A stretch of 64,000 nt of DNA, taken from contig JAPLKC010000085.1 in assembly GCA_026388255.1 (NCBI GenBank), positions 1 to 64,000 on the forward strand, given 5' to 3'. The stretch comes from Pseudomonadota bacterium (lineage in GTDB: Bacteria > Desulfobacterota > Syntrophorhabdia > Syntrophorhabdales > Syntrophorhabdaceae). Positions 21,147 to 50,273 of this stretch are shown in pieces (within the stretch, counting starts at the first letter, position 1; every line of letters begins with the position of its first letter). The translations under genes and the position numbers were made by a program. The notes beneath the pieces are model-generated. The model did not search any database and was not told where the DNA came from. It saw only the letters and a program-made list of their open reading frames with translations.

Positions 21147-21371
21147 AGAACCTTCTTATTTTGCCTTTCTGCACTCCATAAAAAACATTATTAAAAAGGT
21201 TTCCATACTTGCTTGCACTGTGCAAGCAAAATACATCTAATTGTTCAAACCAAAGCCTGTATTGGCTTTACAGAGATTTAGCTCTTTGCTCTCAATGTGA
21301 GAGCAAACACTACAGACACAGTGTCTGTAATCGCACAAAATGATATGAAATCGATACTTTATTATCATCCG
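21147..21371. other. Four-hairpin element, copy 1
   Basis: Non-coding element homologous to 22633-22863. It holds four successive inverted repeats: P1 TTGCTTGCAC/GTGCAAGCAA (21209-21229), P2 AAAGCC/GGCTTT with loop TGTATT (21252-21269), P3 TTTGCTCTCA/TGAGAGCAAA (21285-21307), and P4 TACAGACAC/GTGTCTGTA (21311-21329). It begins immediately after an attC on the minus strand. A 43-codon minus-strand Cys-containing frame (21237-21368) crosses it, but the same frame is interrupted by stops in copy 2, so conservation is at the level of structure. RNA or single-strand DNA function is inferred. Confidence 0.75.
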
Positions 21372-21372
21372 G

Positions 21373-21436
21373 TTCCAACGCCAGCGTTAGCCAGAGGCAG
21401 GTTTTATTGCCGATTGTCTGCAACCGATGGTTGGGC
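21373..21436 (-). other. attC site of cassette A
   Basis: On the minus strand R'' is GCCCAAC and R' is GTTGGAA. The interior pairs as GTT-CAGA-GGCA against TGCC-TCTG-TAAC with unpaired bases, the usual attC bottom-strand fold. It lies about 90 bases after the stop of the cassette A gene. Confidence 0.7.
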
Positions 21437-21524
21437 GGGTTCTCTTTTGTAAGTTTTTTGTATCAATAAAACCTCTGTTTCCAAAAGTTATTTAGTTTTT
21501 AAAGGATGTCCCCTTATCCCTGGG

Positions 21525-22461: not shown

Positions 22462-22525
22462 GCCTAACGCCAGGATCAACCAGAGGCCGGCTTTATGGCC
22501 GATTGGCTCCGGTGAATCGTTGGAA
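22462..22525 (-). other. attC site of the non-coding hairpin cassette
   Basis: On the minus strand R'' is TTCCAAC and R' is GTTAGGC. The interior forms an imperfect stem (GAT...GAGGCCGGC against GGCCGA...CTC...ATC on the plus strand) around a TTTAT loop. R'' is the exact complement of the GTTGGAA at which this cassette begins (22866-22872). Confidence 0.75.
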
Positions 22526-22865
22526 CTATTTTTTGCCTTTATCGGCTTTTCCATGTTTTTGTTTATTATAGCTTCTATCCTGTCTTTTGTCTTTATTCTT
22601 TTCTAAAATCTTATGGAGAAGAGAAGCCAGCTATTTTAAAACCTTCTTTTTCAGCCTTTATGTACTTCATATAATACATTTATCAAGACATTTATACGTT
22701 TTCTAACACAGTGTTAGAAAAATATACTTAATTGCCCAAACCTAAGCCTGTATTGGCTTAGCTAAGATTTTAAATTCAGTAGCAACATTTGCTACCAATG
22801 TTGTAGACACATTGTCTACAAAGTCTCATTATTGAAGATTTATGACTGTTTATCATTTTTTTAGG
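22526..22865. other. Non-coding cassette with four-hairpin element, copy 2 (22633-22863)
   Basis: This cassette body of about 340 bases has no supported gene. Its first two thirds on the minus strand hold copy 2 of the hairpin element: P1 TTTTCTAACAC/GTGTTAGAAAA (22699-22721), P2 CTAAGCC/GGCTTAG with loop TGTATT (22742-22761), P3 GTAGCAA/TTGCTAC (22779-22795), and P4 TTGTAGACA/TGTCTACAA (22801-22821). Order, spacing and P2 loop match copy 1 while stem sequences differ with pairing kept. Confidence 0.78.
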
Positions 22866-22926
22866 TTCCAACACGCGGGTCAGCGAGACGCGCTTCGTGC
22901 AGGTTCGCTGCAAGCCGTTGTTAGCG
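22866..22926 (-). other. attC site of cassette B
   Basis: On the minus strand R'' is CGCTAAC and R' is GTTGGAA. The interior stem pairs CGG and CAGCGA with TCGCTG and CCG, around a variable terminal region. The cassette B stop codon lies four bases before R''. Confidence 0.8.
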
Positions 22927-25670: not shown

Positions 25671-25797
25671 AAATAAGTAAATGACTATTCTCCGCCAGGA
25701 AGAAATTCTATTAAACCGATTGATCCCTGCTGTCGTACCCGCCCTTTTTTCTTTCATTCTCCTGCTATTTCAGCATGTTGTCAAGGAATATTTTATG
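25671..25797. repeat. Dispersed non-coding repeat, copy II
   Basis: Partner of 161-285 in the same orientation, roughly four fifths identical by eye, with shared AAATAAGTAAAT, AACCGATTGATCCC and ATGTTGTCAAGGA blocks. It sits in the repeat-rich spacer next to the cassette array. Confidence 0.6.
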
Positions 25798-25830
25798 CCA
25801 TAAATGTACTATTACACAAAAGACAGAACA

Positions 25831-26503
25831 ACCTATTCTCTCGCAGAGTTCACAGGGTACGCAGAGAAAGAGGATATACTTGTAAATTTTACCCGCAGGG
25901 TGTGCGGGTTGCCGGAATGAATCATTCTCTCTATTCCGGCAAAAGTTATCTCAACTCCGCGATCTCTGCGTACTCGAACGACCGTAAGGGAGTGGGCGTG
26001 AGGGAAAAGAATCAAAAGCATTGTCTCTCGCAGAGTTCACAGAGTACGCAGAGAAAGACGAGATATGCTTGTGGCCATAATTGCGAGAAAGCTCAATTCT
26101 GTCCACATTCCATGCCCTTGTCAGGGCAGAAATAAACCCGTATTTTCCATTAGGATAAATATCGGTGTCTGGTTATCCTTGGCATTGGGGAATTAATAAT
26201 CAATTAAACCGCCCGAATTACTGCACGGTAGTGAGCGTGAGGGAAAAGAATCAAAGGCATTGTCTCTCGCAGAGTTCACAGAGTACGCAGAGAAAGGCAG
26301 GTATATCTGTGAGCAGCATCGAGGACTACCTGATCCTGCTCACACACTACGCCCCTTCGGGGCAGGGGCATAGATAAACAATAATCACGCACCGACAGGT
26401 GCCGTGAGTTTACCCTGATATGGGCATTCTCTCAAATCAGGGTAAAAAACTATTTTAACTCTGTGATCTCTGCGTACTCGAACGACCGCAAGGGAGTGGG
26501 CGA
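25831..26503. repeat. Irregular CTCTGCG/CGCAGAG repeat family
   Basis: Three direct copies of CTCTCGCAGAGTTCACAG followed by a/ggTACGCAGAGAAAG start near 25833, 26024 and 26263. The last two share a longer preceding block (AAAGAATCAAA, then GCATTGT). Two copies of an opposing block, CTCTGCGTACTCGAACGACC then AAGGGAGTGGGCG, lie near 25965 and 26468. Because CTCTGCGTACTC complements GAGTACGCAGAG, direct and inverted copies could pair over hundreds of bases. Spacing is irregular, so this is not a CRISPR. Confidence 0.75.
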
Positions 26504-26755
26504 GAGGAATAAGAATTAAGGGAATGCTCACTTACTCACAGGCAAAAGGCCGATCTGACGAGATATGAGATGAGACTCAAAAACCTGCCGGAGGAAATTG
26601 CTCTCACAGTGAAAGCAATTGTGGAAATCCGTGAAACAGTTGCACGGATTTAGGAAATCTCCGTAAAAGCAATGCAGACGCTGCTTCGTACGATTCAGCC
26701 AAAAAATAACTGAGTCGATGAATCCGGTTTTCACTGAGAATACAAAAGGGGTTAG

Positions 26756-31424: not shown

Positions 31425-31871
31425 TAAGGATCATACGTACCCTTCCTTATCATTCTGATTCAATTCCGGCTATTTTGCAACCTAAATAATGTATGAAATA
31501 TCATTATTCTTTGCAGGCTGTTTTGTTGTAAATCGGTTGAGGTTTTTCCTCATGCTTGTAATTGAAAACCATTCACGGTTTTATTGGTGATACTGTTCAA
31601 TTTTTATTGAAAACAGGGAAAACGTGAGGATAGGCCGGTTGATATAAAAAATTTGACAAATATCTGCATTGGTGTTTCATTTGATTATAAAACAAATTCT
31701 TATTGTGTTAAGAAGATATTAAAAGATGCTGTTATAAAAGATGCTGTTATAAAAGATGCTGTTATAAAAGATGCTGTTATAAATGGTATTCAAATTCGGT
31801 TTTAGAACAACAAGAATAAAACGGACATGCGGGATCAGGAAGATTTCCGGGTCTGTAAGAGGAGGCTTTTG
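31425..31871. other. AT-rich spacer upstream of gpmA
   Basis: No gene seen. The stretch contains the 15-base tandem repeat at 31721-31780 and ends with the gpmA ribosome-binding site (GAGGAGG). Confidence 0.6.
31721..31780 (+). repeat. 15-bp tandem repeat, four perfect copies
   Basis: The unit AAAAGATGCTGTTAT is repeated four times without mismatch, about 90-150 bases upstream of the gpmA start. Perfect identity suggests recent expansion or active slippage. Confidence 0.97.
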
Positions 31872-49354: not shown

Positions 49355-50273
49355 ATGGCAACAAAAAAGACAACCGTAAATCCTGAATTTCTGTATATCT
49401 CCGTAGACAAGATTATAGTGTTGGAACAGGTGAGATCGAGTATTAATACTGAAACAGACTCATTTAAATCACTCGTGCAGTCAATTAAAGACAAAGGCAT
49501 CTTAGAACCGCTTATCGTAACCGCACAGAATGACGGAACATATTTACTTATCTGCGGGGAGAGACGTCTCGTTGCAGCCCGGCAACTCGGACTTGAATCC
49601 GTACCGGTGAGAGTTATTGAAGCAGGCAAAGAGTTAGGGGACACCATAGCCCTTCAACTTACAGAGAACCTCTAACGGGAGGACTTGAATCCCATAGATC
49701 AGGCTAAAGGAATACTCTCATTTATTCAGGCGAAACATCCTGACAAGGGGTATGGTATGGACGGGGTTATGAGTGAATTAGTAATGTACAATCGGAGGCC
49801 CGAAGACCTACCTGAGGAAATTGCTACAACGTTTGTAGCAATTTCCAAAATTGCTGCAAAGTCAATATCTACGCTGTTTAACATAATTTCACTTTTAAAA
49901 CTTTCTCCCGAGATTCAGGCCGAAATTCAGGCAGGAAATCTCCCCGTTTCTCAGGGTTATCTCTTTGCTGCAAACCTTGATTGTCCAGATATTCACCGAC
50001 ATTATAAAAACACCAGTGACCTATACAACTTTAGAGAGCAGACTCACAGCATACAAAAAAGTAAAACCTGACCCGAATAATACAAAACCCGTATCCGTGA
50101 AGAAACAGGTTAAAGGTCTTATATCAATGAAGACAACCTTTGAGACGGGCCTTGGAACTTATTTAAGGGAAGATATTGAAAAGTTTCTTTATGAACTACA
50201 GGTTTTCTGTGATTTTGTGCAACAACAGGCGCCAAAGGCTCCATACGGCAAGAAAAGACCACCACAAGTGTAA
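49355..50273 (+). pseudogene. Decayed ParB/Spo0J-like protein
   Basis: A ParB N-terminal nuclease/CTPase-like domain is readable at 49355-49675: ISVDKIIVLEQVRSS, then SIKDKGILEPLIV and CGERRLVAARQLGLESVPVRVI, ending QLTENL. A TAA interrupts where ParB proteins normally read ENLqREDLNPIDQA, and translation resumes in the same frame (REDLNPIDQAKGILSFI) with a HTH-like middle part. A frameshift near 50000 moves the rest (TTLESRLTAYKKV) to another frame, ending at 50273. No parA is nearby, so it is an orphan from a plasmid, phage or island. Confidence 0.75.

Follow-up and report, generated by a model that had tools for sequence, protein, structure and literature searches.

A recurrent integron cassette lacking a convincing gene carries palindromes in common with the genes of an orphan ParB-like family and is a candidate carrier of parS-like target sites

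What does an integron cassette carry when it carries no convincing gene? The question is raised by a stretch of 64,000 nucleotides from a Syntrophorhabdaceae genome (hereafter, the window), in which we found a short integron cassette array on the minus strand with two copies of a palindrome-rich element (Table 1). Direct reading of this strand places the 5' limit of the cassette holding copy 2 at 22871 (G/TTGGAAC, the slash marking the limit, with the site at 22865-22872) and its 3' limit at 22468 (G/TTAGGC, which is R' of the next cassette, 22462-22468), while the cassette's own attC starts with R'' at 22519-22526. The initial annotation of this DNA had claimed that the 5' end complements the R'' of its own attC, that copy 2 is enclosed by two attC sites and that copy 1 starts at the same core, both copies having been placed by integron recombination. 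These claims agree with what we read: GTTGGAAC and GTTCCAAC are exact complements, in accordance with the TTRRRY/RYYYAAC core of integron gene cassettes; the attC upstream of copy 2 has the RYYYAAC...GTTRRRY layout, and the type of the cassette's own attC recurs behind other copies of the element; and the GTTGGAAC start of copy 1 sits behind an attC.

Two purpose-made attC scans with ad hoc criteria recovered none of the array's five sites, and the single-strand DNA folds of the two attCs flanking copy 2 were not better than those of shuffled sequences (z -0.54 and -0.44). Two other attCs of the same array do fold beyond shuffles (z -3.70 and -2.23). Over 13 attCs, the inner stem averages 6.0 bp compared with 5.2 bp after shuffling, a modest excess (largest of 200 shuffled means, 6). 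The integron integrase is encoded in this genome at two loci, both on other contigs and both frame-broken as assembled (G000:C45:2185-3196 and G000:C53:12258-13195, split over two or three frames). The second of these contigs also carries one copy of the element and one fragment of the ParB-like family described below.

Table 1. Features of the cassette array and of the ParB-like gene in the window
Feature	Position	Strand	Remarks
Copy 2 cassette	22468-22871	minus	404 bp; 5' end GTTGGAAC; own attC with R'' GTTCCAAC at 3' end
attC of cassette upstream of copy 2	22866-22924	minus	RYYYAAC...GTTRRRY layout, aligned with 12 others
attC of copy 2 cassette	22462-22526	minus	R'' GTTCCAAC, R' GTTAGGC; type recurs behind other copies
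Copy 2 H1	22801-22821	minus	arm TTGTAGACA, 9 bp; centre ATG
Copy 2 H2	22779-22795	minus	arm GTAGCAA, 7 bp, perfect; centre ATG
Copy 2 P3	22737-22762	minus	like ParB-like recognition-helix codons (ISxKxIxxL)
Copy 2 H4	22699-22721	minus	arm TTTCTAACA, 10 bp; centre CTG
attC before copy 1	21375-21437	minus	aligned with other attCs
Copy 1 5' recombination core	21372-21379	minus	GTTGGAAC
Copy 1 H1	21311-21329	minus	arm TTACAGACA, 8 bp; centre CTG
Copy 1 H2	21285-21307	minus	arm TTGCTCTCA, 10 bp; centre CAT
Copy 1 P3	21246-21271	minus	similarity to recognition-helix codons
Copy 1 H4	21209-21229	minus	arm TTGCTTGCA, 9 bp; centre CAG
ParB-like gene, frame-broken	49355-50273	plus	two tblastn pieces, separate ORFs
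Palindrome in HTH codons of this gene	49816-49846	plus	arms 14 bp; centre CGT

The element consists of three palindromes with a 3-nt centre (H1, H2 and H4) and a conserved 26-nt stretch, P3, between H2 and H4. We detected 22 full copies in this genome (covariance model, E<1e-9), commoner than chance; the 15 copies from which the model was built are all among them. Copies are also present in a genome of the same genus (G001) and in two of the same family (G007 and G016). Among 99 relatives, the model matched 5 genomes, one of them (G009) by two weak matches, and gave none in 94, and among 395 genomes of the phylum it matched 3 under a stricter filter. A search of genome and viral contig collections with a P3 pattern returned nothing, a weak negative because the pattern fits only 8 of 44 copies. 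One copy (G000:C80, 5361-5460) has a partial tandem duplication within H4.

In the four genomes, a cassette boundary is present in 24 of 43 copies of the element and both ends in 9. Allowing one mismatch, GTTGGAAC occurs within 200 nt upstream of 19 copies and GTTCCAAC downstream of 14; in 13 of these 14, it is followed by a stretch read as attC, and in 9 the distance from the modelled part to the 3' core is 159-162 nt. We therefore take these to be copies of a single recurring type of cassette, some 400 bp long. The remaining 19 copies have no detectable boundary and, by the refuting condition that the initial annotation itself had set, count against a strict tie of the element to integrons. 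Copies outside cassettes were no part of that annotation. The boundary counts rest on 43 copies, while the counts given for frame, core and arm sharing include a further one, G1_C57b, which is probably a ParB-like remnant.

None of the copies contains a convincing gene. Substitutions are spread flatly over the codon positions, both in the P3 part (292:283:250) and in the H1/H2 part (608:582:697), with no third-position excess. Of the 19 copies with a 5' boundary, the P3 frame is open for 40-72 codons in 9 and another frame for 43-69 codons in 6; a conserved small cassette protein is nevertheless unlikely, as the codon positions are flat despite these open frames. The notion of a mobile cassette with no convincing gene, for which the search for the same cassette elsewhere had been proposed as a check, is thus borne out by a type that recurs in four genomes and by its flat codon positions. 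In one copy (G001:C16, 5128-5270), GTTGGAAC comes directly after a GGAGG...ATGG start; as this start is placed before GTTGGAAC, a 44-codon frame might be expressed there.

We found that the covariance model also matches many genes of one orphan ParB-like family, a link that the initial annotation did not contain. These genes are single, about 309 codons long and dispersed among unrelated genes. The encoded protein has the domains of ParB (Pfam ParB_N, 1.6e-13, and HTH_ParB, 1.7e-6), and its structural model has the ParB fold (pLDDT 70.5, best Foldseek match 1.3e-10); a PDB search with the HTH segment of a single protein as query gave nothing. Searching 60 genomes with a 98-aa piece, we counted 39 matches in this genome (G000), 37 in G001, 49 in G007, 50 in G016, 9 in G009 and 3 in G010 (187 in all), numbers which include pseudogenes and fragments; the remaining 54 gave none. 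The named relatives are deltaproteobacterial MAGs, e.g., AlinenSediments_bin-2384, LacPavin_0920_SED1_MAG_45_15, Syntrophus sp. SW.010 and Syntrophobacterales Day2-6_bin-621. The window itself holds a frame-broken member, whose two pieces are 84% and 76% identical to an intact copy at G000:C95 (tblastn). On another contig (G000:C134, 79835-79955), a ParB-like remnant has two different tandem palindromes, in frame, in its HTH region. The flanks of the ParB-like genes (e.g., loci L138, L139 and L142) contain the repeat families AGTGAATAGT/ACTATTCACT and CGTGAAGCG/CGCTTCACG, which may bear on the spread of these genes. In the window, a repeat with CTCTCGCAGAGTTCACAGAGTACGCAGAGAAAG is present in four imperfect copies at 25788-26561, and similar text adjoins several ParB-like genes; an intergenic 15-nt tandem repeat lies at 31720-31794.

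The genes of this family contain palindromes of their own, at the same place. Of 72 homologs that share at least 40% identity and cover residues 145-180, 68 carry one with arms of 7 bp or longer in the codons of the helix that precedes ISGKSI. Outside these codons, the best arm of a gene has a median of 4 to 5, with 5 of 72 reaching 7, and no palindrome was seen at those codons in 33 more distant ParBs. All 122 distinct gap-free modules have it in their HTH codons, and the in-frame palindrome copies in the stretches read fall within ParB-like genes. Element and genes have the same core, [C/A]A-NNN-T[G/T], with variable arms; in the element, the two bases before the centre are [C/A]A in all 93 palindromes that have arms of 7 bp or more, H4 included and irrespective of the P3 frame. 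Substitutions in codons 110-149 of the genes favour the third position as usual (1819:1466:6067), which is not so in the palindrome codons (1105:969:1074) or in the P3-like codons (818:677:751).

Not only the core but also individual arms are common to the two. Of 46 distinct 9-nt arms, 23 occur in both element and gene palindromes (column-shuffle expectation 5.4, maximum 13 in 3000 shuffles), and 50 of 93 element palindromes have an arm matching that of a gene; under a stricter shuffle that preserves blocks of 3+4 nt, the sharing of 7-nt arms (26 of 41) does not clearly exceed chance (mean 18.3, maximum 26.5). Within this genome, only 8 of 30 element arms are found in its own fetched ParB-like genes. 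All three arms of copy 1 are present in ParB-like genes, that of H1 at G000:C135 (L143) and that of H4 at G000:C98 (L244), both in this genome, and that of H2 at L110, L115 and L277. The H1 arm of copy 2 recurs at L119 and at L017, a broken ParB-like remnant on contig C19 of this genome, and for its H2 and H4 arms we saw no match among the ParB-like genes found. On account of these common arms, we regard the element as a group of three putative parS-like targets, present in cassette-borne and dispersed copies. It is thus likely, judging from the sequences, that the array holds an integron cassette with no convincing gene whose payload is three parS-like predicted targets of orphan ParB-like proteins, each gene of which would have its own site.

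The element might instead be a decayed and dispersed fragment of ParB-like genes, caught in a cassette and itself functionless, so that palindromes would matter in the genes only. The resemblance of P3 to recognition-helix codons would fit such an origin, as would the remnant with two tandem palindromes at C134:79835 and the scarcity of stops in the H1-H2-P3 frame (17 in 1225 codons, while the other two frames of this strand have 98 and 43 in 1204). We nevertheless regard this as unlikely: the three palindromes keep a fixed layout in four genomes, their stems are 88-91% Watson-Crick in 21 copies from genomes other than this one, and H4 does not, in most copies, share the frame of H1, H2 and P3.

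The reading as target sites draws on a coupling between bases of the palindrome and residues of the protein in which it is encoded. We numbered one arm n7 n6 n5 n4 n3 M A up to the 3-nt centre and used distinct modules with at least 40% identity and no gaps at residues 153-176. A rule relating n4 to residues 171/172 was read from 68 copies first, of which 63 hold to it and 5 do not; further copies were then fetched as a test, and it holds in 49 of 54 new distinct copies, again with 5 exceptions (permutation mean 20.7, maximum 31 in 5000 permutations). In each of the 54, 8 or all 9 of the arm positions pair. The couplings that follow were read over all 122 modules. Both n4 and n3 couple to residue 172, 60 of 64 modules with n4=G having Arg or Lys, and n4=T couples to Tyr171 (23 of 27). 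M couples to residue 176, C going with Arg (63 of 67) and A with Asn (50 of 54; 113 of 121 together); textbook DNA reading predicts arginine at C:G and asparagine at A:T pairs. The leading residue is 146 for n5 and 144 for n6, where T goes with Lys or Arg in 35 of 42, while n7 couples to 148 (81 of 84 modules with G have Arg or Lys) and to 151 (T with Tyr, 17 of 17). The excess information of the named couples amounts to 0.5-1.1 bits, whereas the median across residues 100-229 is about 0.003. For M, n3, n4, n5 and n6, the leading residue is identical in G000 plus G001 (62 modules) and in the remaining genomes (60 modules), whereas n7 has either 151 or 148.

Such coupling does not seem to come from common descent. 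When the palindrome of the nearest relative is substituted, it drops to 0.20 bits for n5-146 and to at most 0.06 for the other seven couples; of the nearest pairs that differ at M, residue 176 differs in 41 of 42, and of those that differ at n4, residue 172 differs in 57 of 57. We therefore rejected phylogeny as its source, the nearest relative's site carrying almost no signal. Transfer of whole modules as blocks is disfavoured, since different bases couple to different residues independently: n6 gives 0.02 bits of information on residue 172 and n4 gives 1.09. A protein-only packing or salt bridge between residues 158/161 and 172 is likewise disfavoured because n5, which falls on the third position of codons 157 and 161, tracks residue 146 all the same, a coupling that packing leaves unexplained. 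In an alignment to the ParB-parS crystal chain 6s6h, residues 171, 176 and 177 correspond to R173, N178 and T179 of Caulobacter ParB, of which R173 and N178 are both reported to contact parS (PMC7383237). Palindrome bases thus match specificity residues (M with 176, n4 with 172/171, and others) in the manner of ParB-parS pairs. We infer that the coupling reflects DNA binding and that the cassette copies may be bound as well, with some effect of this binding.

Equal arms could also be maintained by template switching between them, with no selection for binding. Such homogenisation of arms is a known mechanism (PMC8604942, PMC8794818) and has been proposed for the coding palindromes of nematomorph mitochondria (PMC6649704), and two features of the arms are in line with it: they vary from copy to copy but do so jointly, with 96 symmetric and 11 asymmetric differences between nearest relatives, and 11 of 34 changed centres are inversions. 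Yet, it predicts neither the coupling of single bases to distant residues nor a fixed core and position in all copies, and we consider it improbable as an explanation by itself; the coupling speaks against template switching as a sufficient cause, although such switching may help to keep the arms equal.

The initial annotation had called this a hairpin element and had mentioned cassette-borne small RNAs, from which the structure seemed to it to differ; a hairpin or small-RNA structure is not supported here. Covariation is strong in H1, H2 and H4 and weak in P3, and over the whole structure 72 cells are changed on both sides, compared with 23 in shuffles. P3 was rejected as a hairpin, with 5 of its 6 pairs departing only by broken pairs. 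Leaving out the outermost pairs, which have a G-T excess (43 against 7 A-C), and rows less than 60% paired in the helix, stem mismatches are 17 G-T and 16 A-C, and this equality is not the trace of selection for an RNA hairpin on one strand. The search of Rfam gave no match for the element beyond a spurious hit to mir-77, which did not reach the threshold of that family. A cassette-borne structured small RNA whose hairpins are kept by compensatory change, as in the Xanthomonas integron sRNA, is hardly credible, although the stem covariation and the folding energy (z -6.5 on the minus and -4.3 on the plus strand) would suit it, for it has neither an Rfam match nor a G-T excess inside the outermost stem pairs, its P3 hairpin is unsupported, and the same palindromes lie in register inside protein-coding ParB-like genes; RNA was therefore rejected as the main reading, and the 'hairpins' are best read, from the pattern of their bases, as DNA palindromes.

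Returning to the palindromes as target sites, the following course of events can be proposed. Each ParB-like gene would hold its own target palindrome inside its own helix-turn-helix codons, and the palindrome would evolve as the target of the encoded protein, since the base at each position goes with a particular residue; the two half-sites would change jointly, being read by a dimer. The cassette would then recruit ParB-like proteins in cis and serve as a platform for binding, nucleation or silencing. Candidate outcomes include repression of neighbouring cassettes, tethering and hitch-hiking on partition-like machinery. We also put forward, tentatively, a wider and possible reading, in which the family is self-addressing, protein and site diversifying side by side into tens of private pairs per genome with a readable code, and in which cassettes and other dispersed elements would carry clusters of addresses bound by the matching proteins.

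Like ParB-parS and Noc-NBS, the system proposed here combines ParB_N and HTH_ParB domains, the ParB fold and a palindromic site. It differs from both in that four genomes have 37-50 matches of the family each and that nearly every copy has a different palindrome, located inside the gene's own HTH codons. The placing of a parS site inside a parB gene is known from Bacillus spo0J. As in ParB-parS, specificity residues stand at matching positions and the site would be read by a dimer (PMC7383237), here as deduced from sequence. Orphan ParBs linked to mobile elements have been described (PMC12704722), and they resemble the present family in that their genes are scattered and lie outside parAB; in contrast, a private covarying site within the gene, as seen here, is not mentioned in the accessible part of that account.

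As for the cassette, it shares the lack of a convincing gene with the gene-less integron cassettes (PMC6557892, PMC11014356) and the sRNA-Xcc1 cassettes, but its payload would be predicted protein-target palindromes, neither a promoter nor an RNA with an Rfam match. The Rickettsia palindromic elements (PMC10969869) likewise have palindromes that stand in frame within genes; these, however, are reported to lie in unrelated genes and to lose the identity of their repeats with time (PMC6649704, which also describes the nematomorph coding palindromes), whereas here, in the stretches read, one gene family is concerned and the arms are kept equal. The SGI1 island is reported to hijack a plasmid parABS system (PMC10954446), so that in both cases a mobile element would exploit the partition system of another replicon, which for the cassettes is a proposal drawn from sequence; the partners differ, being integron cassettes and chromosomal orphan ParB-like proteins here. 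The SGI1 case may serve as a lead for the hitch-hiking option. In the open-access literature, we found no report of a ParB family with private covarying sites in its own HTH codons, nor of ParB-like target sites on integron cassettes.

If this reading is true, it has implications for both integrons and ParB proteins. Strong stem covariation may reflect the DNA site of a dimer, not RNA structure, which calls for caution. The cassettes would represent a new kind of integron cargo, i.e., protein-addressing DNA instead of genes, promoters or RNAs. In turn, the ParB-like family would offer more than 100 natural protein-site pairs whose specificity is legible from sequence, and thus a test bed for the evolution of ParB specificity.
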